This document shows, one piece after another, positions 1,955 through 19,342 of a stretch of DNA of 24,218 nt (positions are counted from its first letter, which is position 1; each line of letters begins with the position of its first letter). Position numbers and translations under genes: made by a program. Location of the stretch: positions 1 to 24,218 of IMG/VR virus record IMGVR_UViG_2162886015_000009; one strand, given 5' to 3'. A model generated the notes under the pieces. That model worked only from the letters and a program-made list of their open reading frames with translations, ran no database searches and was not told where the DNA came from. This DNA is from a virus.

Positions 1955-1972
1955 ACGTCAAGGAGACGACGC

Positions 1973-2350: not shown

Positions 2351-2371
2351 GGTTCAACCGTCTGACGTCTT

Positions 2372-2406
2372 CTCGGCCGGTGGGAGTGTACTTCCCGCCG
2401 GCCGAG
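2372..2406 (+). terminator. Strong GC hairpin, probable terminator
   Basis: CTCGGCCGGTGGGA (2372-2385) pairs with TCCCGCCGGCCGAG (2393-2406) over 14 bp with one G-T pair and a 7-base loop. It sits 22 bases after a stop codon. There is no T-run, which is common for actinobacterial-type terminators. A promoter-like element begins at the next base. Confidence 0.6.
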
Positions 2407-2415
2407 TGGTATTAT
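2407..2415 (+). promoter_or_regulatory. Candidate extended -10 promoter
   Basis: TGG followed by TATTAT (2410-2415) fits the extended -10 pattern TGn-TAnnnT. It directly follows the terminator hairpin and lies about 80 bases before the small membrane genes. No -35 hexamer is recognisable because the region is occupied by the hairpin arm. The 2416-2495 interval holds no other supported gene. Confidence 0.35.
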
Positions 2416-2495
2416 CGAATCACCGCGTTGTAGCAGTTCAGGAAGAGACGAGGAATCGCACGTGGCTCGTGCGCCACCGAGAGGAAGTGACAGCA

Positions 2496-2579
2496 ATGCG
2501 ATACATCTGCATGGGACTCAGCTTCTGGCTGACCCTGCTGCTTATGCAGCCCTACTTGACCAGCTACACGATTCGATAA
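2496..2579 (+). CDS. 27-aa single-span membrane peptide
   Basis: ATG 2496 lies eight bases after GAGGAAG (2481-2487). The peptide starts MRYICMGLSFWLTLLLMQPY and ends LTSYTIR; almost the whole length is one hydrophobic segment. Third positions are about 85% G/C, whereas the overlapping frame-2 reading (GTG 2462 on) has mostly A/T third positions, which favours this frame. The stop TAA 2577-2579 overlaps the AAGGAAG site of the next, also membrane, gene. Function unknown; a lysis accessory or membrane peptide role is only a guess. Confidence 0.5.
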   Translation: MRYICMGLSFWLTLLLMQPYLTSYTIR

Positions 2580-2592
2580 GGAAGTCTTCACC

Positions 2593-2811
2593 GTGCCTGA
2601 CCGTGAGGAGCTCGGCATTCTGTGCCTCTTCGGGCTCCTGGCCGTTCTCTACGTCGTTGGCCTCGCCATCAAGTACCTCATCGAGTACTGGTACGCCGTC
2701 ATCCTGACGCTGAGCGTTCTCGTCGCGTTCCGCGTCTGGCTCCGCCGACTGTACCCCGTCTACCTCGACGATGACGAAGACGACTACTGGGAGCCTGTCC
2801 CCCAGGAGTGA
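2593..2811 (+). CDS. Small two-span membrane protein, 72 aa
   Basis: GTG 2593 is eight bases after AAGGAAG (2578-2584). Two hydrophobic segments are visible, LGILCLFGLLAVLYVVGLAI and then YWYAVILTLSVLVAFRVWL, separated by KYLIEY and followed by an RRLYPVYL turn and a very acidic tail (DDDEDDYWEPVPQE). The size, two spans and charged tail are holin-like, but no endolysin gene is nearby in this window, so I do not call it a holin. It is paired with the 27-aa peptide just upstream and followed one base later by the next ATG. Confidence 0.7.
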   Translation: MPDREELGILCLFGLLAVLYVVGLAIKYLIEYWYAVILTLSVLVAFRVWLRRLYPVYLDDDEDDYWEPVPQE

Positions 2812-2812
2812 T

Positions 2813-3494
2813 ATGGCGTATAATCCAGTCGTGACGTCAGAGATTCTCGGCCCGGCACGTGGCCGTCTTCAGACCGCCTGCCAGCGCGCCTGGAGGCTCA
2901 GCCAGGCGCTCGAGACACTGGTTCCGCATCGCGCGGTGAACCCGGACGACGTCGCCTCTCGGACTCGCGTCACCCCAGCGCCGCCCTGGCACGCCAGGGC
3001 GGCGCTGCTTGTTATGGACCTCCACGCGTCAGCACGAGAAGCACGAGAAGACCTTCATCTTCGCCGTCAGCGGCAACGCCAAGGTGCGTGGCGGCAGCGA
3101 TCTCAACACGCAGTACGCCCTGGACGCGCTTCCTCGTCTCGCTGAGGCGGTAGAGGACAGTCACGTGTGGCGCACGGTCTTCCGCTTGGAGCAGTGGATC
3201 CACAAGGCGGAGGAGATCCTCGGGCTCGTGGAGCCACTGCGTCACCTCCCCACGCCACCGGATGAGAGTGAGCCTCGCTGCCCCTGGTGTGGCTATCTCA
3301 CGTTGCGTTGGCAGATCCAGCTTGCCAGGATACGATGTGTCAATCCAGGGTGCGCCGTGGATCAGCACCACGATCGCCGGCCGGCAGGCTACCTGGAGAT
3401 GGACTTCCAGACCGGCACCACGGCAATCGTCTGGGATGATGAGCTCCCCGAGAAGCGGAAGGACCTGGACGATGAGCAGGGGCTGGACGTCTGA
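2813..3494 (+). CDS. Conserved phage hypothetical with Zn-ribbon, broken by an apparent +1 frameshift near 3059
   Basis: The 5' part in frame 2 starts MAYNPVVTSEIL and runs through PPWHARAALLVMDLHASARE. The continuation in frame 3 reads FAVSGNAKVRGGSDLNTQYA, then ALDALPRLAEAVED, then a zinc-ribbon (RCPWCGYLTLR...IRCVNPGC) to TGA 3492-3494. Removing one base at about 3059 (CAT CTT C to CAT TTC) gives SAREAREDLHFAVSGNAKV. I recall an actinophage family with the order PPWN...LVMDLHA...DLRYAVTG...GGSD.NT..ALDAL...CPYC...C..PGC. The start at ATG 2813 follows AGGAG (2804-2808); GTG 2831 is an alternative. The defect is probably an indel, either real or from sequencing. The frame-2 reading alone would end at 3145 and the frame-3 reading alone opens at 3009. 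Function unknown. Confidence 0.65.
2819..2824 (+). promoter_or_regulatory. TATAAT -10-like element inside a gene start
   Basis: A perfect TATAAT lies seven bases before GTG 2831, the spacing expected for a leaderless GTG transcript, but it is also codons 3-4 of the ATG 2813 reading. No convincing -35 is present. Similar TATAATC elements occur at 3801 and 10547, both in front of long structural genes. Confidence 0.3.
2976..3007. repeat. 15-bp perfect inverted repeat within a coding region
   Basis: CAGCGCCGCCCTGGC (2976-2990) and its exact reverse complement (2993-3007) are separated by only AC. In RNA this would form a very stable hairpin. It lies within the coding sequence for TPAPPWHARAAL, where the family has a conserved PPW motif, and about 50 bases before the frame change. 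Confidence 0.7.
3032..3049 (+). repeat. 9-bp tandem duplication
   Basis: GCACGAGAA occurs twice with no gap (3032-3040 and 3041-3049), coding for ARE ARE in frame 2. It lies ten bases before the inferred single-base indel of the same gene, so the segment may be prone to slippage. Confidence 0.7.
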
Positions 3495-3747
3495 CGATCT
3501 TCCCGTGGTGGGGGACGACCCAACTCTCTGGACCGTCAGTGAGGCCGCCACACTCCTGGGCCCTCCGCAGCTCTCGGCCGCCCAGGTGCGGGAGCTCGTG
3601 AAACTGTTCGCCCTGAAGTACGACCTGCAGCCTGTAGGCAAGCGTCGAGTGACCGCGAGAGGGCGCGGCGGCCGGCACGCTAGGGTGTATAAAGCCGACT
3701 CCCTGATCAGGGCCTACAACGACCTCGTAGGCCGTCCGAGTCGGTAA
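3472..3747 (+). CDS. Winged-helix/excisionase-like DNA-binding protein, 91 aa
   Basis: ATG 3472 follows GGAAGGA (3457-3463) and overlaps the 3' end of the previous gene by 23 bases. The product starts MSRGWTSDDLPVVGDDPTLW and contains TVSEAATLLGPPQLSAAQ, a classic helix-turn-helix opening. This is followed by VRELVKLFALKYDLQPVGK, a basic wing (KRRVTARGRGGRHARVY) and a final helix (KADSLIRAYNDLVG). The pattern matches MerR/excisionase-type winged helices and small phage DNA-binding proteins that often sit just upstream of terS. It may regulate the late operon or help DNA recognition for packaging; which one is not shown by the sequence. Confidence 0.65.
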   Translation: MSRGWTSDDLPVVGDDPTLWTVSEAATLLGPPQLSAAQVRELVKLFALKYDLQPVGKRRVTARGRGGRHARVYKADSLIRAYNDLVGRPSR

Positions 3748-3756
3748 GATCGTTTA

Positions 3757-3833
3757 CCAAGTGATTACCTTCACCTGGTTCCCGCTGCGAAGTTTCAGGA
3801 TATAATCGTGGCGAGGGGTGAGGTGTCGCCACG
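3757..3833 (+). promoter_or_regulatory. Probable late-operon promoter with flanking dyads
   Basis: A perfect TATAAT (3801-3806) lies 47 bases before the terS start. An imperfect inverted repeat CCAAGTGA / TCACCTGG (3757-3764 / 3771-3778, seven of eight pairs) sits where a -35 region or activator site would be. A perfect 8-bp inverted repeat CGTGGCGA / TCGCCACG (3807-3814 / 3826-3833) begins right after the -10 and covers the expected start. The second dyad is followed by TTTT, so a 5'-leader hairpin or attenuator is an alternative. No good -35 hexamer is visible. The whole gap 3748-3852 appears regulatory. Confidence 0.45.
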
Positions 3834-3852
3834 TTTTGAAAGGTGAGACCAG

Positions 3853-4458
3853 ATGCCAAGTTGGGGAGATGAGGCTGAGGCTGCACGGCAGCTGAATCAG
3901 CCACACGGTAACGATGAGTACCTGCTCGCCGTTCCCGACGACTCCAAGGGCTTCAAGTCCCGTGGCCGTTGGCGAGACGCTGAAGCCGCGCGTCTCAAGG
4001 CCAAGGGCATGACGCTGGAGCAGGTGGCCGCGGAGCTGGGCCTCGACAAGCCCAACGCGGAGAATGGCCCACAGCGCGCCGCCGCCGCCATCAAGCGGGC
4101 GATGGGTGAAATGGCCCGCTTCGCCAACGACGAGATGCGGATGATGGAACTCCGCAGCCTCGACGAGTTGGAGTGGCTCGCCTGGCAGACGATGAAGACC
4201 AGCCACGTCGTGGTCAGCCAGGGTCGCGTCGTCTTCAACGAGGACACCGGCGTGCCGGTGACCGACGACCGCTACACGCTCGAGACGATCGACCGCATCC
4301 TGAAGATCAAGGAGCGTCGCGCCAAGCTCATGGGTCTGGACGCGCCGATCCGTCGCGAGGTCATCACGATGGACTCGATCGAGAACGAGATCAAGAAGCT
4401 CGAGGACGAGCTCAAGTCCAGTCAGGGAAGTCAGGGCCTCACCGACGCGCTGGGCTAG
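3853..4458 (+). CDS. terS: Terminase small subunit
   Basis: This 201-aa protein starts at ATG 3853 after AAAGGTGAG and lies directly upstream of the large terminase. After a variable N-terminus, WRDAEAARLKAKGMTLEQVA followed by AELGL (about residues 37-62) forms a helix-turn-helix. A long helical region follows (ELRSLDELEWLAWQTMKTSH), then a short beta hairpin (VVVSQGRVVFNEDTGVPVTD), and the segment TLETIDRILKIKERRAKLMG with LDAP, typical of actinophage small terminases. The C-terminus (IENEIKKLEDELKSSQ) is a coiled coil suited to ring formation. The role is to recognise the packaging site and deliver DNA to TerL. Gene order and motifs agree. Confidence 0.8.
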   Translation: MPSWGDEAEAARQLNQPHGNDEYLLAVPDDSKGFKSRGRWRDAEAARLKAKGMTLEQVAAELGLDKPNAENGPQRAAAAIKRAMGEMARFANDEMRMMELRSLDELEWLAWQTMKTSHVVVSQGRVVFNEDTGVPVTDDRYTLETIDRILKIKERRAKLMGLDAPIRREVITMDSIENEIKKLEDELKSSQGSQGLTDALG

Positions 4459-4467
4459 GATTGAGCC

Positions 4468-6078
4468 ATGCCCACCCTGGATGAGCTCAAGCTGCAGCGC
4501 CTGCAGTACCTGCAGGAGCTGCAGTCCAAGGCTGCCGGCCTCAAGAAGGGCGTGGATCAGTACCTCCACGACCCGGTTGGCTTCATGCACGACTGCGTTG
4601 ACTGGGGTGAAGGCAACAGTGGCCTGACCTTCTACCAAGAGGACATCATGGCCCTCCTGGAGGAGAAGCGTCGCGTCTCCGTCCGTGGCCCCCACGGTCT
4701 CGGCAAGTCTGCCGTCTCCGCGCTCACCGTGCTCTGGTTCGCCATCACCCGTGACGCCGCCGGCGTCGACTGGAAGATCGTGACCACCGCGGGCGCCTGG
4801 CGTCAGCTCATCAACTACCTGTGGCCAGAGATCCGCAAGTGGTCGATGAAGCTCCGCTGGGAGAAGATCCGCAACCATCCGTTCAACGGCAGCGAGCTGC
4901 TGAACCTGGCGCTTCGTCTCAAGCATGGCAACGCCTTCGCGGCCGCTGCCTCGAACCCTCAGCTCATTGAGGGTGCCCACGCCGACTCTCTGCTCTTCGT
5001 CTACGATGAGTCCAAGGCCATCTTCGCCGGCACGTTCGACGCGTGTGAGGGTGCCTTCTCCGGCACCGGCGAGTCGTACGTCATGGCGCTCTCCACACCC
5101 GGCCCGCCACAGGGTCGCTTCTACGACATCCAGTCGAAGAAGCCGGGATACGAGGACTGGGCGGTCAAGCACGTCACGCTGGAAGAGTCCATGCGGGCCG
5201 GCCGTATCTCCCCGGAGTGGGCTGAGCAGCGCAAGCTCCAGTGGGGTGAGAACAGCGCCCTCTACCAGAACCGCGTCCTTGGTCAGTTCTACGCTGGCGA
5301 GGAAGACAGCGTCGTTCCTCTCAGCTGGGTGGAAGCGGCCAACGAGCGCTGGCACGAGTGGCAGCTCGGTGGCAAGGTCGACCCAGGCACGCCGCACACC
5401 CTGGGCGTAGACGTCGCCCGCAGCGGCAACGACAAGACCTGCTTCGCGATCCGGTGGGGACACGTCATCACCGAGATCCGCGACTACACTCACAACGACA
5501 CCATGGTCACCACTGGCCGCGTCCAGGGCATCCTGGAGAACGACCCGACCATGACCGCGATCGTCGACGTCGTCGGCGTGGGCGGTGGCGTTGTGGACCG
5601 CCTCCGCGAGATGAACGCGAAGGTGCAGCCCTTCACCGCGTCGGCTCGCAGTCGCAACCGCGACAAGACCGGTGAGCTCGGCTTCCTCAACACCAGGGCC
5701 GCCGCCTGGTGGAACCTGCGTGAGCTGCTTGACCCGTCAGCTGGCTCCGTCGTCTGTCTGCCACCCGATGACGATCTTCTGGGAGATCTTACGGCTCCAA
5801 AGGCCGCAGAGCCCCAGTCAGGTGGTAAGCTGAAGATCGAGTCGAAGGACGAGATCAAGAAGCGCATCGGTCGTTCCACAGACCGCGCCGACGCCGTCGT
5901 TCAGGCCTTCTGGACTGAGGCTGGCAGCTGGCACGACGCCTATGGCACAACCAAGTGCGACAGCTGCGGCCAGGCCTTCCTCACGAAGGTTGACGGCGTG
6001 GAGCGGATCAAGTGCCCGCATTGCGACGCTCTTGTCCTCGACGACGACGTTGACGACGAGGAGCCGACGGATGAATGA
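4468..6078 (+). CDS. terL: Terminase large subunit (ATPase/nuclease) with C-terminal zinc ribbon
   Basis: This 536-aa protein is the packaging motor. The ATPase half has a Walker A-like GPHGLGKS (residues 74-81), Walker B LLFVYDE (175-181) and a coupling-motif candidate ALSTPGPPQG (207-216). The RNase H-like nuclease half has GVDVARSG (D315), IVDVVGVGGG (D367) and STDRADAVVQAF (D472/D475), the usual acidic metal-binding triad. After the nuclease domain there is an extra ribbon, C497-x2-C500 ... C516-x2-C519 (KCDSC / KCPHC), and an acidic tail. The start at ATG 4468 follows AGGA (4457-4460), ten bases after terS ends. The stop overlaps the following start (ATG 6071). The Cys-rich tail is not part of the core fold. 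Confidence 0.95.
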   Translation: MPTLDELKLQRLQYLQELQSKAAGLKKGVDQYLHDPVGFMHDCVDWGEGNSGLTFYQEDIMALLEEKRRVSVRGPHGLGKSAVSALTVLWFAITRDAAGVDWKIVTTAGAWRQLINYLWPEIRKWSMKLRWEKIRNHPFNGSELLNLALRLKHGNAFAAAASNPQLIEGAHADSLLFVYDESKAIFAGTFDACEGAFSGTGESYVMALSTPGPPQGRFYDIQSKKPGYEDWAVKHVTLEESMRAGRISPEWAEQRKLQWGENSALYQNRVLGQFYAGEEDSVVPLSWVEAANERWHEWQLGGKVDPGTPHTLGVDVARSGNDKTCFAIRWGHVITEIRDYTHNDTMVTTGRVQGILENDPTMTAIVDVVGVGGGVVDRLREMNAKVQPFTASARSRNRDKTGELGFLNTRAAAWWNLRELLDPSAGSVVCLPPDDDLLGDLTAPKAAEPQSGGKLKIESKDEIKKRIGRSTDRADAVVQAFWTEAGSWHDAYGTTKCDSCGQAFLTKVDGVERIKCPHCDALVLDDDVDDEEPTDE

Positions 6079-6250
6079 CCAGATGTTCCACGGCACCCCG
6101 CGGCCACTGCCGCGGGTGCTCTTCTGCCACGTTCCCGCTCACTGGTGCGGCCGTCTCTGGACTGCCAACACCGTGGGTGAGTACGACGAGGCGCTCAAGG
6201 CACGAGTCGGCCACGAGCAGCTCTGCAGCGGTGCTCGGGGGATCGCGTGA
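6071..6250 (+). CDS. Hypothetical Cys/His-containing protein, 59 aa
   Basis: ATG 6071 lies inside the end of terL (8-base overlap) with GAGGAG eight bases upstream. The product starts MNDQMFHGTPRPLPRVLFCH and has a compact C19-H20...H24-x-C26 cluster (FCHVPAHWCGRLW), plus C52 near the end, compatible with a small zinc site. Its stop TGA overlaps the next GTG (6247-6250). Coupled spacing and shape suggest a real gene; function unknown. Confidence 0.65.
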   Translation: MNDQMFHGTPRPLPRVLFCHVPAHWCGRLWTANTVGEYDEALKARVGHEQLCSGARGIA

Positions 6251-6570
6251 CTGAGATCCCCGCACAGTCGCTCCCTGGCTGGATGCAGCCGGTGGCGATG
6301 CCTCGCCTCAGCGTCGAGGAGCAGCAAGCCGCTCGCGACATCTTCGAGGGCAAGGTGGAGGGCAAGTCAGCTTGCCACTACTGCGCCGGCATCCACGCCA
6401 CCGTCGCCAACCTGCCAGCCAGTCGTCAGCCGTGCCCGCGTGTTCGCCGCATTGAGTGGCACAGCGACGGCACCGTGCTCGTCCTTGAATACCAGCACCC
6501 TGGTGACTGGGCGGACGAGAACACGATCTTCCCTCACGACGTCTACGACGGTGAGGAAGAGACCACGTGA
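6247..6570 (+). CDS. Conserved phage hypothetical, 107 aa
   Basis: It starts at GTG 6247 in a GTGA overlap. The core reads ACHYCAGIHATVANLPASRQ, then PCPRVRRIEWHSDGTVLVLE, then a terminal IFPHDVYDG. The CHYC knuckle followed by PCPRV.RIEWH.DGT is a combination I recall from many actinophage genomes as a hypothetical protein next to terminase or portal genes. A single CxxC with one further Cys and several His could bind a metal. The stop overlaps the next GTG (6567-6570), so three small genes are translationally chained after terL. Confidence 0.75.
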   Translation: MTEIPAQSLPGWMQPVAMPRLSVEEQQAARDIFEGKVEGKSACHYCAGIHATVANLPASRQPCPRVRRIEWHSDGTVLVLEYQHPGDWADENTIFPHDVYDGEEETT

Positions 6571-6887
6571 GGTTCGTCTGCGACGTCTCCGAGGACAACG
6601 GCAACCTGGTCATCCTCGCTCTCAACCCGGTCACCAAGACCGAGGTCAAGATTTCTCCGCCTTTTCGCTGGGAAGCCAGCGAGGAGCTGGAGATCTTTGC
6701 CCGGAACTTCGACCTGTACTGCAACGTCTCGTGGCAGTTCGGGAAGCTTGATCCGAGCAAGGTGAACCCCTCAGCGTGGCCAAGGCGATCAGTCATCGAC
6801 GCCTTGAAGTTCGGTGAGGCGCTTCCACCACCACCATCACCACCATCATCACCCGATCGCGGCGAACGCGACGCGGTCACCGACTGA
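6567..6887 (+). CDS. Conserved phage hypothetical, 106 aa
   Basis: GTG 6567 is in a GTGA overlap with the upstream gene. The protein begins MRFVCDVSEDNGNLVILALN, a beta-rich start, and continues with an EELEIFARNFDLYCNVSW segment followed by KLDPSKVNPSAWPR. The C-terminus is a Pro/Ser tract (LPPPPSPPSSP) coded by a CCA/TCA trinucleotide run at about 6828-6852. Expansion or contraction of this run would not disturb the folded part. Function unknown. Confidence 0.75.
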   Translation: MRFVCDVSEDNGNLVILALNPVTKTEVKISPPFRWEASEELEIFARNFDLYCNVSWQFGKLDPSKVNPSAWPRRSVIDALKFGEALPPPPSPPSSPDRGERDAVTD

Positions 6888-6909
6888 CTAGAGCCTTCGA
6901 AAGAGGTTT

Positions 6910-9132
6910 GTGGCAGACCTTGAGCCAAGCGCACCGGTTCTTCCGGTGGTCATCTCCGCCAACGGCATGGGCCGTTACAACGACAACCGCAACGACGAGT
7001 GGCAGGAGGGCTTCCGCGACGTCCTCCACGGGCAGTCGGGCATCAACGCCAACGTCGGCTCCACGGGCCAGCGACTGCTCATCGGTCAGGACACCATCAA
7101 CCGCAACGTCGGTGACACGGGCCAGCGCATCATCGCCGGCCAGCGCATCACCGACGCGGAGATGAACGATGGCTTCCGTGACCTGAGTGGGGAGCACCTC
7201 AACCTCGCCAACGGTCAGCGCTTCACCGACCGTGCGGTCCAGGACGGCACGCAGGCTGGTCTGACCGGCCAGCGCTTCACCGACTCGCGCATCTCGAACG
7301 GCGTGGAGAACCTGTCCAACGGTCAGCGCTTCACGGACGCCCGCATCGCGGACGGCGTGGAGGGCCTCGGCCGTCAGGTCAACCAGGACGCCATGTACCT
7401 GAGTCGTGGCCAGCAGGCCACGGACGCCAACGTCAACCAGAACGCGTGGTGGGTCGACAACGACGTCAACCACGGGTTCCGCCACCTGTCGGGTGAGGTC
7501 AACGCCGTTGACCGTCACCTGGACGGCGAGATCGGCGAGGTCGGCGAGGCCGTCAACGGCAACGGTCGTTGGCTCGGTGACGGTCAGCGTCGCACGGACG
7601 ACAACGTCAACGCCAACGCGCGCTTCCTCGACCGCAACATCGACGAGGTCGACCGCGACGTTCTTCGCACCGGTCGCGAGAACGAGCGTGGCCAGCGCCT
7701 GACGGACGACAACGTCAACACCAACGCTCGCTGGGTGGAGCGGGGTCAGCACGACATCCACCGCCACATCGGCGAGGACGGTCGTGAAACCCGTCAGGAC
7801 GTTCGCGGCGAGGGCCGCGAGGTTCGTCGTGACGTCGGCGAGGTCGGCGAGGCTGTCAACAGCAGCGCTCGTTGGCTGCACGGTGGCCAGGACGCCAACA
7901 CTCGTTGGATCGGCGACCAGGTCAACTCGGACGCTCGCTGGCTCCACAGTGGTCAGGACGCGAACGCCTGGCGTCTCGCTCAGCAGGCTGGCGCTGACAC
8001 GCGCTACCTGGACCAGAACATCGACGCCGGTCGTCGGGACAACGAGCGCGGGTTCGGTCACACGAACCAGCACCTCTCGGACGCTGAGCGTCGCATCGAG
8101 AACCGCATCGGTGACAAGGTCGGCCACGTCGGCGAAGAGCTGGCGGAGTCCGTCGGCGACCTCGGTCGTCAGGGTGTCGACTCCGAGCGCCGCATTGAGG
8201 GTCGTCTGGCCCACAACGCGGAGGAGAACGCCGAGGACTTCTGCGAAGTCAACGAGAACCTCGGCAACGCCGAGCGTCGCCTGGGCAACAACGCGCGTGA
8301 CACCGCGCGGGAGACTCAGCTCCGCATCGCCGACACCGAGCGTCGCATCGAGCGTGGCGCCGACATGGCGGAGCTGCGTCAGACGAAGAACGCGGACGAC
8401 GCGGAGCGTCGCCTCCACGGTCAGATCGCCAGCCAGGTCACGCACAACCTCGAAGAGGTTGCGGAGCAGGTCGGCGACTTCGAGCGTCGCACCGCCTCCG
8501 ACTTCCGGGACACCGAGCGTCGCCTCGACAACCGCATCGACGCCTCCGAGCGTCGGGTGGAGGGCGTCGTTCGCCACAACCTGGAAGAGCTCAGCGAGCA
8601 GCTCGGCGATCACGACCGCCGTGCCTCCGAGCGTCTGGCGCAGATCGCGTGTGAGGTCGCCCACGAGGGCGACAAGACGCGCGGCCTGGTGGAGAAGGTC
8701 GAGCTCGAGGGTCGTCTCTACCTCCGTGACCGCGAGGACCGCACGCACGACCTGGTGCGCACCCTGGCGGACCGCAACCTCGACGAGATGCGCGGCTTCG
8801 AGCGTCGCACCTACGAGAACGAGGTCAAGACTCGCGACCTCATCCGCCACGAGTGGGAGGAGCACCGCGAGCGCGACTTCAACGTCGCCCTGGCGGACCG
8901 CAACCGCCTGCGCACGAAGATCGACATCCTCGAGGCCGAGGACCGCGAGTGGCGGCGTCGCCCCCACCACGGTGGCGGCAACATCAACGTGAACACCTAC
9001 GTTGAGGACGTCGTCGACGACCGGAACTTCCAGTCGCAGGCTCAGCGTCAGCGTCAGCGCTCGTTCCTCCAGGACGAGGACGTTCGCGTCGGCGGCCGTG
9101 GCGGCAACGGCGACCGCGGCATGACCGTCTGA
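6910..9132 (+). CDS. 740-aa repetitive alpha-helical rod protein (putative virion fibre/stalk)
   Basis: It starts at GTG 6910 shortly after AAGAGG (6901-6906). Nearly all of the protein is hydrophilic repeats. Residues about 102-153 carry three copies of an 18-residue unit beginning GQRFTD. Residues about 170-350 carry related units with NVN-NAR-(F/W)L and ARWLH-GQDAN motifs. Residues about 392-580 are built on ERR-(I/L/V) starts spaced 33, 29, 22, 22, 26, 11 and 11 residues apart, a mainly hendecad pattern. Spacings of 18 and 11 favour nearly straight coiled coils. The C-terminus is Gly/Asn-rich (GGGNINVNTYVEDVVDD) and then Gln/Arg-rich. There is no signal peptide and no enzyme motif. Its place between terL and the portal, followed by fibre-like genes, suggests a virion stalk or head fibre; this is inference. 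A scaffold or internal core protein is the alternative. Confidence 0.8.
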   Translation: MADLEPSAPVLPVVISANGMGRYNDNRNDEWQEGFRDVLHGQSGINANVGSTGQRLLIGQDTINRNVGDTGQRIIAGQRITDAEMNDGFRDLSGEHLNLANGQRFTDRAVQDGTQAGLTGQRFTDSRISNGVENLSNGQRFTDARIADGVEGLGRQVNQDAMYLSRGQQATDANVNQNAWWVDNDVNHGFRHLSGEVNAVDRHLDGEIGEVGEAVNGNGRWLGDGQRRTDDNVNANARFLDRNIDEVDRDVLRTGRENERGQRLTDDNVNTNARWVERGQHDIHRHIGEDGRETRQDVRGEGREVRRDVGEVGEAVNSSARWLHGGQDANTRWIGDQVNSDARWLHSGQDANAWRLAQQAGADTRYLDQNIDAGRRDNERGFGHTNQHLSDAERRIENRIGDKVGHVGEELAESVGDLGRQGVDSERRIEGRLAHNAEENAEDFCEVNENLGNAERRLGNNARDTARETQLRIADTERRIERGADMAELRQTKNADDAERRLHGQIASQVTHNLEEVAEQVGDFERRTASDFRDTERRLDNRIDASERRVEGVVRHNLEELSEQLGDHDRRASERLAQIACEVAHEGDKTRGLVEKVELEGRLYLRDREDRTHDLVRTLADRNLDEMRGFERRTYENEVKTRDLIRHEWEEHRERDFNVALADRNRLRTKIDILEAEDREWRRRPHHGGGNINVNTYVEDVVDDRNFQSQAQRQRQRSFLQDEDVRVGGRGGNGDRGMTV
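7213..7368 (+). repeat. Three 18-codon repeats starting GQRFTD
   Basis: GQRFTD occurs at residues 102, 120 and 138 of the rod protein, exactly 18 codons apart, with a following (V/I)xxG position. Eighteen residues equal five turns of an ideal alpha helix, so the side chains repeat on one face without supercoil. A looser GQR-ITD copy lies upstream at residues 78-82. Confidence 0.75.
8080..8650 (+). repeat. Hendecad (11-residue) repeat block
   Basis: ERR-I/L/V/T motifs recur at spacings of 33, 29, 22, 22, 26, 11 and 11 residues. The clearest units are ERRTASDFRDT and ERRLDNRIDAS, each 11 residues long. HNLEE-(V/L)-EQ-(V/L)GD appears twice about 45 residues apart. The block marks a right-handed or straight coiled-coil section. 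Confidence 0.7.
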
Positions 9133-9148
9133 TCGGGAGACACTCAAC

Positions 9149-9502
9149 ATGGCTCTCGTGACGGACGTCGCATACGCGTCCACCAACAGCACGCTGGTCA
9201 CCGATGACGCGTGGGTCTCCCTCGTGGGCGGTCCACTCCCCGTCGTCGGTCTGGGCTTCGTCGTGCAGCTCCAGGGCTACGTCCTGGGTCTCACGGAGGA
9301 CTCCTCCGTTCGGTTTGTCATCGACGGCACCGAGGTGGTCAAGGCACCACCGGAGTTCCCGCTGATGTACATGCAGCTGCTCACCGTCGGCCCTCACACC
9401 GTGGACTTCCAGGCCATGGTGACCGAGGACAGTGAGCAGGAGCAGGCTGGTCCCCGCGGATTCAGCGTCGTGGACCTCGGTCCCGACCTGGTCCTTCCGT
9501 AG
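9149..9502 (+). CDS. Hypothetical beta-rich protein, 117 aa
   Basis: ATG 9149 follows GGGAGA (9135-9140), 16 bases after the rod gene. The product begins MALVTDVAYASTNSTLVTDD and is almost all predicted strand: WVSLVGGPLPVVGLGFVVQL, then VRFVIDGTEVVKAP, then HTVDFQAMVTED. The layout suggests a beta sandwich such as a fibre head, chaperone or decoration domain. There is no membrane segment or signal. A strong hairpin follows the stop. Position implies it works with the rod protein; not proven. Confidence 0.7.
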   Translation: MALVTDVAYASTNSTLVTDDAWVSLVGGPLPVVGLGFVVQLQGYVLGLTEDSSVRFVIDGTEVVKAPPEFPLMYMQLLTVGPHTVDFQAMVTEDSEQEQAGPRGFSVVDLGPDLVLP

Positions 9503-9510
9503 TACGTGAC

Positions 9511-9545
9511 GTGGCCGGCGAGAGCGTCTCCCTCTCGCCGGCCAC
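9511..9545 (+). terminator. Perfect 14-bp GC hairpin, probable terminator
   Basis: GTGGCCGGCGAGAG (9511-9524) and CTCTCGCCGGCCAC (9532-9545) pair perfectly with a 7-base loop. It lies eight bases after the TAG of the 117-aa gene and just before the AAAGGAG site of the next gene. There is no T-run. It probably acts as a partial terminator or mRNA 3'-end stabiliser inside the late operon. Confidence 0.6.
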
Positions 9546-9572
9546 GCCCACCTGACTGAAAGGAGAACCGGC

Positions 9573-9941
9573 ATGCTGCTTCCGAACAACTACACTATCG
9601 TGGCGGCGGCTGGCTCTCAGTGGTCGGCTCTCTTCACCGTCTACGATGACGATGGCACCCTTGCCGACCTCACCAACAAGGTCTTCGAGATGGTTGTCCG
9701 CGACCGACTTGGCGTCTCCAGTCGCGTCACCTTCTCCGTCAACAGCACCGCGTCCACCGCATACGGTACGATCATCCCCAACACCGTGAACTCCACGCTT
9801 GAGGTCGTCGTCACGTCCGCGGCAACGAACCTGATCGTGGAGGGCGGCGGCCCGTACACGCTCTGGATGGATCAGAACCTGGCAGACGCCACGGCTCTGG
9901 TCACCGGCACGTTCTTCGCCAACCCCGTCGCGAACCCGTAG
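9573..9941 (+). CDS. Fibre-associated beta-domain protein, 122 aa
   Basis: ATG 9573 is seven bases after AGGAG (in AAAGGAGAA, 9559-9567). The sequence reads LPNNYTIVAAAGSQWSALFT, then VYDDDGTLADLTNKVFEMVV, and ends GGPYTLWMDQN...ALVTGTFFANPVANP. The pattern of an opening IxxGx-W, then DLT...F.M.VRD, then YT/LxxD and a final G.F...P resembles the BppU-type N-terminal domains that anchor phage fibres to the virion. It is followed after nine bases by a fibre-like gene. Assignment to that fold is by pattern only; function as an adaptor is inferred. Confidence 0.6.
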   Translation: MLLPNNYTIVAAAGSQWSALFTVYDDDGTLADLTNKVFEMVVRDRLGVSSRVTFSVNSTASTAYGTIIPNTVNSTLEVVVTSAATNLIVEGGGPYTLWMDQNLADATALVTGTFFANPVANP

Positions 9942-9950
9942 GGAGCAGCA

Positions 9951-10514
9951 GTGGTCAACGTCACCGTCACCACCGGCGGCACCAGTGGCCCACGCGGCAA
10001 CACGATCCTCAGCGGCACCGGTGCCCCGAGTAACGTCGTCGGCTTCGACGGCGACTACTACATGGACGGCGCCAACTACCCCGCCAGCATCGTGCTCTAC
10101 GGCCCCAAGGCGGCCGGCGCCTGGCCCGTCACCGGTGTCACACTCGCCAACGGCACCGGCCTGGCGGTAGGTGGCGACCTCAACGGTGCGCTGCCCAACC
10201 CGACGGTCGTGACCACGCACCTGACGGCGGCGCTTCCGGTGGCTCAGGGTGGCACCGGCTCGCAGACCAAGAACTTCGTGGACCTCACCACCGATCAGAA
10301 CATCGGCGGCAACAAGACCTTCTCCGCCTACACGGTCGTTGAGAGTGGCCAGGTAAACGGTGACTTCCGGTTCTTCGGCACCGCTGGCTTCTTTGGTGCC
10401 GCGGGCATCGCTCGGCAGACGGTGACCGGCGCGAAGGGTGGCAACGCGGCGCTGGCCTCGCTGATCACCGCTCTGGCGGCCTTCGGACTGATCACGGACA
10501 ACACAACCGCGTGA
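9951..10514 (+). CDS. Fibre-like virion protein, 187 aa
   Basis: GTG 9951 follows GGGAGCAG. The N-terminal region has GPRGNTILSGTGAPSN, then GFDGDYYMDGANYPASIVLY and GPKAAGAWP. This GPxG...GtG.P....G..GDYY.D.....LYGPK..G.WP signature is common next to collagen-like stretches in phage tail fibres. The middle carries GGDLNGALPNPTV and LPVAQGGTGSQ, and FVDLTTDQNIGGNKTFS, all typical of fibre shaft domains. The C-terminus (NAALASLITALAAFGLITDN) is helical. It is short for a receptor-binding fibre and lies within head genes, so a head fibre or short appendage is plausible. Confidence 0.7.
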   Translation: MVNVTVTTGGTSGPRGNTILSGTGAPSNVVGFDGDYYMDGANYPASIVLYGPKAAGAWPVTGVTLANGTGLAVGGDLNGALPNPTVVTTHLTAALPVAQGGTGSQTKNFVDLTTDQNIGGNKTFSAYTVVESGQVNGDFRFFGTAGFFGAAGIARQTVTGAKGGNAALASLITALAAFGLITDNTTA

Positions 10515-10546
10515 GCTTGTCGTGGGCTGCCACGGCAGTTAAGCGT

Positions 10547-10552
10547 TATAAT
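10547..10552 (+). promoter_or_regulatory. TATAAT -10-like element before the portal gene
   Basis: TATAATCGGCG (10547 on) lies about 20 bases ahead of the portal start in the only real gap between these modules. No matching -35 is visible. The same TATAATC sequence precedes terS (3801). Confidence 0.35.
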
Positions 10553-10572
10553 CGGCGAAGAAGGGGGTGACC

Positions 10573-13500
10573 GTGGCCAAGCGCGGATCCATCATCAGCA
10601 GTGCCAAGCACATCCCAGGCGGTGCCCGGCCGACCAGTGCGCCACAGGGTGGCGGCCCCAACTTCGGCTCGATCTCGCCACTGGCACGCTCGCTGGATAC
10701 CGGCAGCAGTGGCGGCGGCTCCTGGAACAACTCGTACGGTGGCTTCCTGCCCCGTCCGACCGACGCCTTCACTGAGGGCGCGTTCGGTCCGTTCAGCCCG
10801 ATCCTCCCGGTGCCCGTTGACGCCCCTCCCCCGGGCGCTGAGCGGGCCGAGCCGAGGCGCGAGGAGTACCGGGTTGGCTGGAACCTCCCAGTCGGTCAGC
10901 CGGGCACAGAGGGCATCAAGCTCGCTGACTTCTCGACCCTGCGCACCCTGGCGGACCTCTACTCCGTGGCTCGTGCGTGCATCCAGCTCCGCAAGTCGGA
11001 GATCCGTGGCCTCGAGTGGGACATCATGCCCACATCCGACGCCGCGAAGCGCATGCGCAACGATCACGACGCCATGCGAGACTTCGGTGAGCGACGCGAG
11101 AAGGCCGTCAAGTTCTTCCGCCGCCCCGACCCCGACTACTTCTCGTGGAACAGCTGGATCGACGCCGTCCTCGAAGAGGTCTTCGTCTTCGACGCGCTGT
11201 CCATCCTGATCCGCCCAAAGTGGCTCAAGGGCCGCGGCAAGGGTCTCCTGGGCAGCGACCTGGACAGCCTGAACCTGATCAGCGGCCCGACCATCCGACC
11301 GCTGTACGACATCAACGGTGGCTTCCCCCGACCACCGGCACCGGCGTATCAGCAGTATCTCTACGGCGTGCCGCGCTCAGACCTCATGACGATGATCACG
11401 CAGCGCGACATCGAGCAGGCCGGCCTCAGCGGCTCGGAGCTGAAGCAGTTCCGTGGCGATCAGATGCTCTACCTGCCGATGGTGCCGCGACGCTGGACGC
11501 CATACGGCTTCCCGCCCATCGAGCGTGCACTCATCCCGGTCATGTCAGGCCTTCAGAAGCAGGCCTACCAGCTGGACTACTTCCGTGAGGGCACCGTCCC
11601 CGCGGTCTTCGTCTCGCCGGGTGGCAGCAACCAGAACATGACACCGAACCAGATCCGCGAGCTTCAGGACGCTCTCAACGCGATCGCCGGTGACCCAGCG
11701 TGGAAGCACAAGATCATCGTGCTGCCTGCCGACTCGCAGGTCCACCCGCAGAAGAACGCGCAGATCGCCGACCAGTTCGACGAGATCGTCATGAACCAGG
11801 TCTGCATGGCGTTCGACGTGCAGCCGATGGAGCTCGGCATCATGCCGAAGGTCAGCGCCACGGTCTCTCCCGGCGCGGCCAATCAGATGAGCAAGGCCAC
11901 GCAGGACATCCAGGAGCGCAAGGCCACCAAGCCGATCCTGACCTTCCTGGCCGACATCATGACCAGCGTGCTCCACAACATCGCCGGCCAGGAAGACATG
12001 CGCTTCGTCTTTGAGGGCCTGGAGGCGGAGGACGACGAGGCGCTCAAGACTGAGCTCCTGGTCAAGCAGATCGGTGCCGGTCTTCGCTCCATCGATGAAG
12101 GCCGCGAGGAGCTCAACCTGCAGCCGTGGGGTCTCCCCGAGACCTCCGACCCAGGTTGGTCCACGCCAAACGGCTGGGTGCCGCTGGTCGAGGCCACGGA
12201 GGCACGTCTCACCGACGCTCTCACCGGGCCACTCATGGAGTTGCCCGAGGGTGCGTCTCGCGCCACGCAAATGCTCACCGGTGCCGCGCCGCAGGGCATG
12301 CCACCAAGCCAGCAGGCGATCGGTTACGTGCCGCCAACCGCTCCTGGTGCTGCGGACAAGCCCGGCAAGACGCCGCCGGAAGCGGGCACCGCTCCGTCAG
12401 CCAGCGCTGCTGGTCTGAAGCCGCGTGTCAACCCCGCCATCTCGCGTCGTCCTGGTGCCATGGGCACGGGGCAGAGCACGGCGGCAGCCACGCCTGGTCA
12501 CTCCGCGGCGGGTGGCAGCAAGACACCCGCCAAGGACGACGACAAGACGAAGCCTGCAGCCAAGAAGCCGGCGGCCTCGCCCGGCAAGGCCAAGGCGATC
12601 GAGTCTGAGCTGGACGCTCTCAGCCGCCACGTGCGGAAGGGCCGCATGCTCTCCACCTGGACGCCTCGTCACGTCAGCCACAGTCTGCTCGCCCGCATCG
12701 CGGAGGCAAACGTGGAGGGCGGCGACATCGGCATCGCGATCAGCGTCGTCAAGGCGACTCGTCGAGTCGACATCGACGGTCAGACCGTCTGGCTCGACCA
12801 GGATCTCAACCAGATGGAGAACGCCGCTGGCGGCGGTGGTCGGGTCTTCCCGGCTCACGACGTTGACGACACGGAGGTGCCGGGAGGCACCCCTGGCTCC
12901 ACAGCCGGTGGCGAGCCACCTCGCTGGGCGCCCGCTGAGGGCACCAGCTCGGGTGACACTCGCAGCCAAGGCACGTTCGCTCACCACCCTGAGGGTGGGA
13001 ACGACGCCGCCATGCCGCCTGGGCGAAGCCGTCCAGGCAGTCAGGGCGGTGGCCCCAGCATGCCGAACGTGGACGTCTGGCCGCGCGTTGAGGGCGGCCC
13101 GGGTGGCGGTCGAGACCAGGCTGGCGTGAGCAGCCCACCCGGCGCCGTCAAGGGCGTCTTCGGTGGCGCCCCAGCGGCTGAGGTCATCGCCGTCATGTCC
13201 AAGAACTTCCCGGGCAAGGCGATCAAGTGGGTCAAGGACGCGAAGTGGACGCGGGAGATCGTGCCGCTCCACGACGTGGACTTCGACGGGGAGGCCAGCT
13301 GGGCCGCCCATCACAACACCGCTCACGTCCAGGAGTTCGTCGACAAGCTGAACAGTGGCAAGCGACTCAAGCCGGCCATCCTGGTCAGCGTCCCCGGCAA
13401 GCATCGTCTGCGGATCGTGGACGGTCATCACCGTGCCTTGGCCTACCGTCAGCTCGGCAAGCCGATCGACGCCTTCGTGGGAGCCGTCCCCGACGGTGAC

Positions 13501-14190
13501 GACCGTTGGATGGTCACGCACTCGTCGCAGCTCCACCAGAGCGCCGACTCGCTCAACAAGAGCGAGAAGGTCAGCCAGGCGTCGGTGCACTACCGCAAGG
13601 CCACCGACCCCACGAAGCGCTGCGACACCTGCACCATGTTCCGCGCGCCAAACGGCTGCACCCTGGTAACCGGGGTTATCAAGCCGGGCGACACGTGCGA
13701 CCGCTGGTACGGTGGCAACGCCACCAAGAGTCACGAGCCACCCGTCGCCGCTGGCCTCACGGTGATGGCCAGGGACACCGGCCGCATCCTGATGCTCCAG
13801 CGAGCACTCGTGGACGACGATCCCGCGGCGGGTCACTGGGAGTTCCCCGGTGGTTGCCTCGAGAACGGCGAGACGGGCCTCATGGGGGCGATCAGGGAGT
13901 GGCAGGAGGAGACAGGTTGCCTCCTGCCGCCGGGCCGTCTCGCGGGCACCTGGACCTCCGCTGACGGGGTCTACCAGGGCTTCGTCTACCTCGTCGACGC
14001 TGAGGCTGAGGTCGACTGGGACGGTGGCCGAGATGAAGTGATCAACCCGGATGACCCGGATGGTGACTACTTCGAGGCGCTGGCCTGGTGGGACCCTGAT
14101 CAGCTCACGAACAACCCTGCCGTGCGGTCGGAGCTCCTGCGTGACGTCGCAGAGATCCAGCGGCTGGTGAGGGAAGCGCGTGGCGAGTGA
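10573..14190 (+). CDS. Portal protein fused to ParB-like and Nudix hydrolase domains
   Basis: I chose GTG 10573 (AAGGGGG five bases upstream); GTG 10567, two codons earlier, is possible. About 1205 aa, more than twice a normal portal. Residues about 100-560 are the portal core, with LADLYSVARACIQLRKSEIR, then MLYLPMVPRRWTPYGFPPIE and QVCMAFDVQPMELGI, typical of siphovirus portals. Residues 560-865 are an Ala/Pro/Gly-rich linker. Residues about 870-985 hold a ParB-like nuclease-type domain (LKPAILVSV, RIVDGHHRALAYRQLGKP). A Cys cluster (RCDTCTMFRAPNGC...CDRWYGG, about 1017-1048) follows. Residues about 1060-1205 form a Nudix domain with a complete Nudix box, G-x5-E-x7-RE-W-Q-EE-T-G. The portal is the DNA-entry ring; the enzymatic tails would be displayed in each of 12 copies. 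The reading frame is uninterrupted. Confidence 0.9.
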   Translation: MAKRGSIISSAKHIPGGARPTSAPQGGGPNFGSISPLARSLDTGSSGGGSWNNSYGGFLPRPTDAFTEGAFGPFSPILPVPVDAPPPGAERAEPRREEYRVGWNLPVGQPGTEGIKLADFSTLRTLADLYSVARACIQLRKSEIRGLEWDIMPTSDAAKRMRNDHDAMRDFGERREKAVKFFRRPDPDYFSWNSWIDAVLEEVFVFDALSILIRPKWLKGRGKGLLGSDLDSLNLISGPTIRPLYDINGGFPRPPAPAYQQYLYGVPRSDLMTMITQRDIEQAGLSGSELKQFRGDQMLYLPMVPRRWTPYGFPPIERALIPVMSGLQKQAYQLDYFREGTVPAVFVSPGGSNQNMTPNQIRELQDALNAIAGDPAWKHKIIVLPADSQVHPQKNAQIADQFDEIVMNQVCMAFDVQPMELGIMPKVSATVSPGAANQMSKATQDIQERKATKPILTFLADIMTSVLHNIAGQEDMRFVFEGLEAEDDEALKTELLVKQIGAGLRSIDEGREELNLQPWGLPETSDPGWSTPNGWVPLVEATEARLTDALTGPLMELPEGASRATQMLTGAAPQGMPPSQQAIGYVPPTAPGAADKPGKTPPEAGTAPSASAAGLKPRVNPAISRRPGAMGTGQSTAAATPGHSAAGGSKTPAKDDDKTKPAAKKPAASPGKAKAIESELDALSRHVRKGRMLSTWTPRHVSHSLLARIAEANVEGGDIGIAISVVKATRRVDIDGQTVWLDQDLNQMENAAGGGGRVFPAHDVDDTEVPGGTPGSTAGGEPPRWAPAEGTSSGDTRSQGTFAHHPEGGNDAAMPPGRSRPGSQGGGPSMPNVDVWPRVEGGPGGGRDQAGVSSPPGAVKGVFGGAPAAEVIAVMSKNFPGKAIKWVKDAKWTREIVPLHDVDFDGEASWAAHHNTAHVQEFVDKLNSGKRLKPAILVSVPGKHRLRIVDGHHRALAYRQLGKPIDAFVGAVPDGDDRWMVTHSSQLHQSADSLNKSEKVSQASVHYRKATDPTKRCDTCTMFRAPNGCTLVTGVIKPGDTCDRWYGGNATKSHEPPVAAGLTVMARDTGRILMLQRALVDDDPAAGHWEFPGGCLENGETGLMGAIREWQEETGCLLPPGRLAGTWTSADGVYQGFVYLVDAEAEVDWDGGRDEVINPDDPDGDYFEALAWWDPDQLTNNPAVRSELLRDVAEIQRLVREARGE

Positions 14191-14398
14191 GGCCGATGAG
14201 ACGCTCAAGCTTCTCAGTGATCTTACCGCCGCGTTGAACGCTTGCGCCGAGGCCGGTCTCCGGCCTCAGCTCAGGCACGACACGGTGTACACGCGAGGTG
14301 GTTATGTCTTGCCACTCGATGACGGCAAGTGGGTGACACGTACGCTCCTCTACACGGAGTGGACCCCTGCCACTGAGTTCGACGACGACGATGAGTGA
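14180..14398 (+). CDS. Hypothetical acidic protein, 72 aa
   Basis: GTG 14180 overlaps the portal gene by 11 bases, with GAGGGAAG just upstream. The product begins MASEADETLKLLSDLTAALN, a helix, followed by a beta stretch (GLRPQLRHDTVYTRGGYVLP, then GKWVTRTLLYTEW) and an acidic tail (EFDDDDE). No motif is recognised. Being coupled to the portal suggests a head accessory role, without further support. Confidence 0.65.
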   Translation: MASEADETLKLLSDLTAALNACAEAGLRPQLRHDTVYTRGGYVLPLDDGKWVTRTLLYTEWTPATEFDDDDE

Positions 14399-14406
14399 CC
14401 ACGATG

Positions 14407-14415
14407 TGGTAAGAT
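14407..14415 (+). promoter_or_regulatory. Candidate extended -10 promoter for protease/capsid genes
   Basis: TGG plus TAAGAT (14410-14415) in the 45-base gap before the protease gene fits the extended -10 pattern. No -35 hexamer is apparent. It would allow extra transcription of the protease-scaffold and capsid genes. Confidence 0.35.
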
Positions 14416-14443
14416 CCCTACTGCCGCACTTGAGGAGCTGTGA

Positions 14444-17071
14444 ATGGCAGCCACGCTGACGTCAGCCGGTGAGCTGACCTTCATTTCGTTCCCGATCACC
14501 AAGTTTGAGGAGACCGGCGACGGCAACCTGTACGTCTATGGCAAGGCCACGGACGGCAGCGTCGACAGCGACGAGCAGATCGTCGACACCGAGTTCTCCG
14601 GCAAGGCCATCGCCAACTGGCTGGCTACCGGCGCCAACGTCCGCGTTCAGCACAACGCGCAGCGGGACCCAGCCGGTGTGGGCGTGGAAGTCAGCACCGA
14701 GTCCGACGGCTCCACCTGGGTGAAGAGCCTGGTGGTGGAGACCGAGGCGAAGAACCTGGTTCGGCACAAGGCACTCCGTGCCTACAGCGTCGGCATCGCC
14801 CGACCCAAGATCGTGCGGGACAACGTAGCTCGGAACGGCCGCATCGTCGACGGTGAGATCGTCGAGATCAGCCTGGTCGACCGACCCGCCAACAAGAACT
14901 GTGGCATCCAGCTGGTGAAGGCTGACAAGGACGGCAACGTCGAGTTCAGCGGCAAGGTCTTCGGCGCTGCCGACGTGCTCACCAAGGGTGCCTCCGCCAC
15001 GGTGGAGATCACGACGCCGGTCAACCCCGCCTTCAGTCCAGCCGATCTGGCGAAGCTGCTGCATCACCGCGCCACCGCGGAGAAGCGGCAGATGGACGCC
15101 AACGTGGGTGGCGGCGTCGATCGCGACAAGATCCCCGGTTCCGACTTCGCTGGCCGCGACCGCTCCTTCCCGATCGTCACACCTGGCGACGTCAGCGACG
15201 CCGCCAGCTCCATCGGTCGTGCCGGAGCAGACAACTACTCCAGCGATCAGCTGCGAGCGAACATCAGCCGGATCGCTCACCGCAAGGGCCCAGAGTTCGT
15301 GGCGGCGCTTCCGGAGTCCTGGAAGAGCGAGATGGAGGCTGTTGTGGCCAAGGGTGACGGTGCAGTCGTCGAGGACGACAACGACGACAACGAGGGTGGC
15401 GAGGTCAAGGCCGCCGACACCGGCAAGGACGGCGAGGAGAACGTCGCGGAGCCAGACGAGACCAAGGGCGCCAAGGGCGGCAAGACCTGCACCGGTTGCG
15501 GCAAGGGCTTCGACTCCGACTCCAAGCTGCGCAGCTGCCCAGGCTGTGGCAAGGCTCTTCCCAAGTCCGGTGGTCAGGACAAGGAAGACCTTGAGAAGGG
15601 TCACGGCGGCTGCAGCTGCGGTGGCGGCTCGTGCGACGGCTGTGGCAACTGCGCCGGCGACTGCGACAAGTGCATGGGCATGAAGACGGACAAGAGCGTC
15701 AGCTGCCCAGGCTGCTCTCAGGCGGTCACCACCAAGTTCTGCGGCGGCTGCGGTCACCAGGTGATCACTGTCGAGAAGAACGACACCCCTGGCGCGGGCG
15801 TTGTGGGCGTGGGTGCCTCCAACGTGGAGCCAGTACCGGCTCACCGCGAGCCTGACGGAACCGACATCGAGGCACTGGAGGCGGACGCAAGCATGCCGAC
15901 CACCCCCGACGCCAGCGTCAAGGCGGCACAGCGGCTCAAGTCCGTGGGTGTCCCCTCCGACATGGGCGTCATCCACGACCTGACTTGCGCGGCCTTCGAC
16001 CCCGTCGAGGTTGCCAAGACGTATCCCAACGAGAACCTGCACACGATCGACGTCGACGCGTGGCAGCAGAAGGCCCTCGACGCCGCGGCCAACTCGCCGC
16101 TGGCTGAGGCGCAGAAGATGACCGAGCTCTGGCAGCACGTGATCACGCTCAAGGGCGCCGATCACGAGATGCTGGACGAGGTCCGCGAGGAGTCGCACAA
16201 GTCCTTCCAGGACGCGAACCCCGGCCCGGGCACCTTCCCCACGCCTACGGAGCTCAGCCCCGTTCGATTCCGTCGCCCCGTCCTCACGGCCGGCCAGGCG
16301 AGTCACGGAACCGGCTACGACGGCCCCAACACCGCTCAGGTCCCGACGGACGGCGTCACGGCGGACGACTTCAACCGTGGTCCGCTGACCGACGGCCAGG
16401 CGGCGCAGAGCCCATCCAACAAGGGCCGCTCGTTCTACCGCAACGTGCAGCGTGACTCGGCTCGCAGCGCTCTCGCCGCGATGCACGACCACATCGCGCA
16501 GACCTTCCCCGACCTGTGCTCCATGCACGAAGATCACCACCCTGGTGCGGGTCCCGACGCCAACGCGCCGGCCACCCACGTGGGCAAGTCCGTCGAGGCT
16601 CCGGTGGAGTCCGTCGTTGAGCCCACCACCACGGTGACCCCTGAGCCCGCGGCGGAGCCGGTGGCTGAGGTGAAGAAGAGCAAGAAGGACAAGAAGATGG
16701 TCACGAAGGCGGCTACCGTCGACGCCGACCTCATCAAGTCCGCGGTCATCGACGCTCTCACGCCGCTGGCCACCCAGGTTGAGGAGCTCACCAAGGCTCT
16801 CAAGGACGAGCAGGCGAAGAACGTCGAGCTCGCCAAGACGGTCGATGAGCTCTCCAACCTCCCCGACCCCACGGTCGCAGCGTTCAAGGGTGTGGCTGCC
16901 CCTGACGCTCTCAAGTCTTCGACGTCGGTGGCGTCGACCGTTGCCAGCGCCGCGGAGCGGACGCAGGCGGCACTTATGGCGGCCCTCACTGAGGACGCTC
17001 GCCACAGCCCGGACCCAAGCGAGCGGGAAGCCGCTTGGACCAAGCTCTACCAGATGAGCGGCATCCAGTAA
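14444..17071 (+). CDS. Capsid maturation protease fused to zinc-ribbon array and scaffold domain, 875 aa
   Basis: ATG 14444 follows GAGGAG. Residues about 10-160 form a prohead protease of the HK97/XkdF type: YVYGKATDG...EQIVD..FS.KAI, NVRVQHN (His70), ALRAYSVGIARP (Ser115) and DGEIVEISLVDRPANKNC. His and Ser are the expected catalytic pair. Residues 240-297 carry an FPIVTPGDVSDAASSIGRAG...RIAHRKGPEF...LPESW module seen beside other phage proteases. Residues 349-436 are a Cys-rich array of CxxC knuckles (CTGCGKGF, CPGCGKAL, CSCGGGSCDGCGNCAGDCDKC, CPGCSQAV, CGGCG). After a long charged linker, residues about 740-875 have a basic KKSKKDKKM stretch and a coiled coil (VEELTKALKDEQAKNVELAK), like a capsid scaffold. 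The combination suggests one polypeptide that scaffolds and then cleaves the procapsid. The zinc array has no known need in this role. Confidence 0.85.
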   Translation: MAATLTSAGELTFISFPITKFEETGDGNLYVYGKATDGSVDSDEQIVDTEFSGKAIANWLATGANVRVQHNAQRDPAGVGVEVSTESDGSTWVKSLVVETEAKNLVRHKALRAYSVGIARPKIVRDNVARNGRIVDGEIVEISLVDRPANKNCGIQLVKADKDGNVEFSGKVFGAADVLTKGASATVEITTPVNPAFSPADLAKLLHHRATAEKRQMDANVGGGVDRDKIPGSDFAGRDRSFPIVTPGDVSDAASSIGRAGADNYSSDQLRANISRIAHRKGPEFVAALPESWKSEMEAVVAKGDGAVVEDDNDDNEGGEVKAADTGKDGEENVAEPDETKGAKGGKTCTGCGKGFDSDSKLRSCPGCGKALPKSGGQDKEDLEKGHGGCSCGGGSCDGCGNCAGDCDKCMGMKTDKSVSCPGCSQAVTTKFCGGCGHQVITVEKNDTPGAGVVGVGASNVEPVPAHREPDGTDIEALEADASMPTTPDASVKAAQRLKSVGVPSDMGVIHDLTCAAFDPVEVAKTYPNENLHTIDVDAWQQKALDAAANSPLAEAQKMTELWQHVITLKGADHEMLDEVREESHKSFQDANPGPGTFPTPTELSPVRFRRPVLTAGQASHGTGYDGPNTAQVPTDGVTADDFNRGPLTDGQAAQSPSNKGRSFYRNVQRDSARSALAAMHDHIAQTFPDLCSMHEDHHPGAGPDANAPATHVGKSVEAPVESVVEPTTTVTPEPAAEPVAEVKKSKKDKKMVTKAATVDADLIKSAVIDALTPLATQVEELTKALKDEQAKNVELAKTVDELSNLPDPTVAAFKGVAAPDALKSSTSVASTVASAAERTQAALMAALTEDARHSPDPSEREAAWTKLYQMSGIQ

Positions 17072-17133
17072 CATGGCTGCCGGCATCACTCCGGCATATG
17101 CCACCTGTATCGCTTTCGCGAAAGGAGACTCTC

Positions 17134-19329: not shown

Positions 19330-19342
19330 GGTCGCACGAACC

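Follow-up and report, generated by a model that had tools for sequence, protein, structure and literature searches.

The TerL-portal interval

The stretch of DNA analyzed here, hereafter the window, is a viral record of 24,218 bases with a G+C content of 65%. Between the genes coding for the terminase large subunit (TerL) and the portal we found four ORFs of 740, 117, 122 and 187 aa (Table 1), which had already been pointed out in a preliminary description made from the letters of this DNA. All of them are located on a single strand, with intergenic gaps of 9–70 bp, and in the comparison with the relative L006 the changes in each are concentrated at third codon positions, indicating that the four are coding and under selection. 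Two small genes located directly 5′ of the 740-aa ORF recur in the relatives. For the 107-aa protein no family match was found in the PHROG and Pfam searches, and homologs of the 106-aa protein were found both together with the 740-aa gene (L006, L002, L013, L077, L079 and L080) and without it (L021 and L024). An antisense ORF of 774 aa over the 740-aa gene was rejected as a gene and is probably a shadow of the high GC content. At the right border, the portal ORF matched the Pfam families Phage_portal (53.1 bits) and NUDIX (57.2 bits); its Nudix box seems intact and a ParB-like stretch was also detected. Searches of the whole window gave no nucleotide match in the phages collection, no Rfam match and no tRNA gene, and the promoter and terminator scan gave nothing above shuffled sequences.

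Table 1. Features of the window, with positions in the 24,218-base record.
Feature	Position	Strand	Remarks
Polynucleotide-kinase-like gene	565-1044		phrog_415, E 2.9e-32
Terminase large subunit (TerL)	4468..6078	+	Left border of the slot; phrog_2, E 1.1e-34
107-aa protein	6247..6570 (start possibly 6283)	+	CxxC...PCPR motif; homologs in most relatives
106-aa protein	6567..6887	+	Homologs in relatives; frequently directly 5′ of the rod
Rod, 740 aa	6910..9132	+	Predicted helical repeat protein
117-aa TNF/C1q-like jelly-roll protein	9149..9502	+	AlphaFold model; candidate trimeric knob (or anchor)
122-aa beta protein	9573..9941	+	phrog_1084; candidate adaptor for the fibre
187-aa short fibre protein	9951..10514	+	N-terminal region (anchor) conserved among slot fibres
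Portal with C-terminal NUDIX domain	10567..14190	+	Right border of the slot; phrog_2662, E 6.7e-45
Protease-like gene	14444-17071		Single ORF; CxxC-rich middle, coiled-coil scaffold-like C-terminus
Major-head-like gene	17035-18948		phrog_13692
Three small beta-rich proteins	19009-20174		Follow the major head gene; might be decoration proteins

A predicted helical rod and a predicted separate jelly-roll protein

The 740-aa protein had been described as a repeat rod, and at the protein level the repeat is real. Autocorrelation peaks were found at a lag of 18 (residues 40–180), 11 (180–400) and 22 (380–680), in each of the three segments above all 500 shuffles, and at the DNA level there was almost no tandem repeat. 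Hydrophobic residues recur with a period of 3.60–3.66, which fits 18/5 and 11/3 helical repeats. The AlphaFold model is helical from residue 30 to 682; its mean pLDDT of 51.5 is low, a value of the kind that a coiled-coil chain modelled in isolation should give. If the approximately 650 helical residues were fully extended, at 0.15 nm per residue, the rod would reach ~95 nm as an upper bound. It is strongly hydrophilic, with a net charge of −36.

The sequence searches placed the rod in no named family: it matched no PHROG, neither the protein nor its profile matched any PDB sequence, and the only Pfam matches, apolipoprotein or DUF1664 in three of the homologs, were sub-threshold and of the type that amphipathic helices typically give. 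A tblastn search of the phages collection gave no match either, and the profile found no relative in 84,980 bacterial and archaeal genomes. Counting the window, there are nine carriers among the relatives or pieces of them, the others being L006/G001, L002/G002, L013, L014, L003/G005, L077, L079 and L080. Identity among the homologs is highest in the C-terminal third (~0.8 at residues 601–640) and lowest at both ends. Two relatives have an N-terminal extension containing a ‘W.N.AT...C.DA’ stretch, for which the libraries searched gave no name.

The 117-aa gene adjoins the rod in L006, L002, L003 and L013. Its AlphaFold model (pLDDT 84.6) is a jelly roll and, as a prediction, has the ten strands of the C1q/TNF-like fold. 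Compared by VIA-align, the model was closest to the C-terminal domain of Pgp3 (Z 11.6 over 107 residues), followed by F-BclA (Z 11.4) and the TNF-like lectins PLTL and BC2L-C (Z about 11). Over this set of lectins and knobs (the N-terminal domain of BC2L-C, PLTL, BclA and Pgp3) Z is about 10.7–11.6, although sequence identity is only 6–16%, and the profile of the 117-aa protein found nothing convincing among the PDB sequences. Proteins of this fold group are mostly trimeric knobs, and we propose on the basis of the model that the 117-aa protein is a candidate for one, with the difference that C1q/TNF-like lectins and knobs are usually fused to their stalk, whereas here the putative knob is a separate gene. 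ExsF (9h3d), a C1q-like protein of Bacillus that anchors a spore fibre, was also among the structural matches, so that a function as anchor is possible too. More distant homologs (20–28% identity) occur in three relatives in which no rod was seen (L004, L011 and L024), after long fibres and directly before the portal. In L011 the slot fibre seems to be split across two overlapping frames (positions 1081-2683 of that contig).

A small candidate adaptor and an exchangeable fibre

All ten homologs of the 122-aa protein matched phrog_1084 (best E 1.1e-11). Two of the ten also matched the Pfam family LtfC (PF23926), with a best E of 0.029 that falls under the curated cut-off for membership. No match was found by tblastn in the phages collection, and the profile retrieved nothing convincing from the PDB sequences (best 26dk_M, E 0.046). 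In phage DT57C, LtfC forms a dodecameric collar that holds the lateral tail fibres (PMC10713586). The LtfA-LtfC system of T5 and DT57C resembles the 122/187 pair in combining a small beta adaptor with a fibre anchored by its N-terminus (PMC10713586); it differs in that the DT57C fibres are located at the tail tip, and the likeness of the adaptors stays under the Pfam cut-off.

The 187-aa protein contains the GPRG...GDYYMD...LYGPK and VAQGGTGSQ motifs noted in the preliminary description, and had no meaningful match among PDB sequences. Its N-terminal 70 aa are 53–66% identical to those of fibres of 400–1,132 aa located in the same slot of the relatives, and the remainder is unrelated or partly shared. 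The slot fibres show the same pattern among themselves: the N-terminal ~60–70 residues are about 48–85% identical, and beyond them the sequences fall into no fewer than four mutually unrelated C-terminal types, which reach ~1,100 aa. This is the architecture of modular receptor-binding fibres, i.e., a constant N-terminal anchor followed by exchanged C-terminal domains. The slot fibres of L004, L024 and L012 matched PHROGs named ‘tail fiber’ with E down to 2.6e-68.

The short form is found in the window and in L006, and has a C-terminal element of its own. Since its orthologs elsewhere have 414–1,132 aa, the 187-aa gene could be taken for a cut-down and non-functional remnant of a longer fibre, replaced by the rod and its knob. 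However, the two short forms are 80% identical with changes biased toward third codon positions, indicating that the gene is under selection as it stands, and we consider such a degeneration very improbable.

The slot in related phages

We compared the interval in about 20 relatives, with genes called by a purpose-written script that places the starts approximately; the slots of L013, L025, L079 and L080 were incomplete or hard to call. Most relatives have fibre-like genes between TerL and portal, L017 and L038 being slots without any. In the Brevundimonas phage Polewnik, which has a related portal and head protein and no inserted fibre, TerL abuts the portal.

The cassette consists of two separable modules, rod plus 117-aa protein and 122-aa protein plus fibre. 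L004, L012 and L026 have the second and no rod. The reverse is found in L003/G005, where the rod and the 117-aa gene are located some 10 kb away from TerL, in a region of small genes that do not look structural, and the slot of the L003 contig holds a different fibre of 877 aa. Several of the small genes around this displaced rod share a C-terminal ‘L.PLRTR.ALKAI..IKAL’ motif (positions 961-14454 of the L003 contig). In L077 both modules are present and interleaved, with the fibre before the rod and without the 117-aa gene. The proposal that the four proteins make up one stalk, adaptor and tip is not supported by this distribution and was rejected; in the comparison of related genomes that the preliminary description had suggested, fibres recurred in most slots and the block was not kept as one unit.

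An internal capsid scaffold, the reading that the preliminary description had set against its own, was rejected for the rod, which is missing from the slots of most relatives and located 5′ of the portal. More broadly, the rod might be an internal head protein, a scaffold, an ejected protein or a protein that is no part of the virion, such as a protective or amphipathic helical one, the fibre being then the 122/187 pair only. The low confidence of the helical model, the apolipoprotein-type matches, the hydrophilic and strongly charged composition and the location away from the head genes in G005 are in line with such a role. However, its patchy presence speaks against an essential scaffold, a place that the coiled-coil C-terminus of the protease-like protein probably occupies, and the rod is accompanied by the gene of the C1q-like knob in L006, L002, L013 and L003. 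We consider a non-surface rod unlikely.

Similar arrangements exist in cultured phages. In two of them, the Streptomyces phages GiJojo and pSt2308, the TerL-portal slot is occupied by a gene homologous to the C-terminal fibre domain (XTS03718.1 in pSt2308; gene 68 of GiJojo shares this domain only, ~285 aa). In the Streptomyces phage Moab, an LtfC-like gene (20.6 bits against Pfam LtfC, cut-off 27) and a fibre (genes 30-31) are located between the major capsid protein and the head-to-tail adaptor, and gene 15 of the Streptomyces phage KimJongPhill is a fibre-domain gene in the same position. All four resemble the window in having fibre-type genes within the head module, and differ from it in that the rod had no tblastn match in the phages collection and in that their fibre genes are annotated as hypothetical only.

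Two of the relatives, G001 (107.6 kb) and G002 (108.0 kb), allowed the slot to be compared with the tail genes. Both have a separate tail module with tail tube, tape measure and baseplate-like genes and a pectin-lyase-like spike. In G001 the spike has 677 aa and a pectate-lyase-like domain (Pfam E 3.2e-11), and in G002 it is represented by a counterpart in length, indicating that the slot fibre is additional to the tail-tip spike.

Head, neck or tail

Genes for head fibres are usually placed with the head genes, and this is the location of the fibre-type genes in the window and in most relatives, the rod of G005 being an exception. The preliminary description had suggested a head fibre or capsid-attached appendage; a surface fibre cassette among head genes is supported by the exchange of fibres at a constant position, the predicted C1q/TNF-like knob and the separate spike locus of two relatives, whereas the motifs that it had listed do not specify a head location, because a GPRG/GDYY/YGPK-type motif is also present in a tail-module gene of the Streptomyces phage Samy annotated as tail fibre.

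This last observation is one of those that would be expected if the cassette fibres were displaced tail fibres, attached to the tail as side or collar fibres, with their position reflecting mosaic rearrangement only. The names of the PHROGs matched by the slot fibre domains, the resemblance of the adaptor to LtfC and the fibre gene of L034, which is located 5′ of TerL and outside the slot, point in the same direction. Against it, the position next to the portal or among head genes is kept in divergent relatives, including GiJojo, pSt2308, Moab and KimJongPhill, and G001 and G002 already have a complete tail-tip spike locus. We regard a tail location as a real but lesser possibility.

Head fibres are known in other phages. 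The head fibre gp8.5 of phi29 is a coiled coil of alpha-helices believed to help the phage attach to the cell (PMC7602432), and the crAss001 head fibres gp21/gp29 bind the centres of the hexons (PMC10172136). These are capsid-bound fibres that range from small to long, as the appendage proposed here may be. The searches of PDB sequences with the rod, its profile and the 187-aa protein found no sequence relation to gp8.5, gp21/gp29 or other solved head fibres, although a remote one may exist, and the window differs in its much longer rod, its separate C1q-like protein and its swappable fibre. In the literature we found no structural or proteomic report on the appendages of the window and its relatives. 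The constant linkage to head genes and the existence of head fibres in phi29 and crAss001 lead us to favor head or neck over tail. It has to be weighed that the nearest named relative of this type of adaptor, LtfC, is (by a weak match) a tail protein in DT57C, and that the low confidence of the rod model and its apolipoprotein-like matches below threshold allow roles other than adhesion for the amphipathic helices.

A possible second adhesive appendage

We favor a reading in which the interval between TerL and portal serves as a fibre slot of variable content, occupied by two modules in the window, and in which it provides an extra virion-surface adhesin, most likely on the capsid or neck; as a whole this seems to us about evenly balanced. 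The extra adhesin module in the slot is well supported, and an attachment of the appendage to head or neck is plausible. A swappable set of fibres beside normal tail spikes, as found in these related soil phages, may point to a second appendage for adhesion that could be borne by the head or neck.

In the mechanism that we propose, the first module would form a long alpha-helical rod with the C1q/TNF-like jelly-roll protein as a trimeric knob, and the second would combine the beta adaptor with the short fibre, the N-terminus of which would bind the virion or the adaptor. The C-terminal part of the fibre is exchanged between phages, as happens in receptor-binding fibres. The appendage, for which the capsid or neck is the most likely site of assembly, could then bind the host surface or soil polymers reversibly, ahead of the engagement of the tail. 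The sequences themselves show the genes, the periodicity of the rod, the exchange of fibres and the spike locus of two relatives, and the C1q-like fold comes from prediction. We infer in this scheme that the proteins are present in the virion, that there is trimerisation, that rod and knob are in contact, and that the attachment to head or neck and the adhesive role are as described. Its most specific form, in which a lineage of ~110-kb soil phages would carry a two-part adhesion organelle on the head or neck, with a rod of at most ~95 nm from a new helical-repeat family, a separate C1q-like lectin as tip, an exchangeable fibre beside it and the TerL-portal interval as cassette slot, is tentative and seems to us rather doubtful.

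The question of location could be tested in the cultured phages GiJojo and pSt2308. If the proposal is correct, large soil phages would recognize their hosts by two independent sets of fibres, one of them borne by the head or neck, with its genes beside the portal. Half of the determinants of host range would then be overlooked by genome annotation, in which such genes of GiJojo, pSt2308 and Moab are called hypothetical, and host predictions based only on tail genes would mislead.
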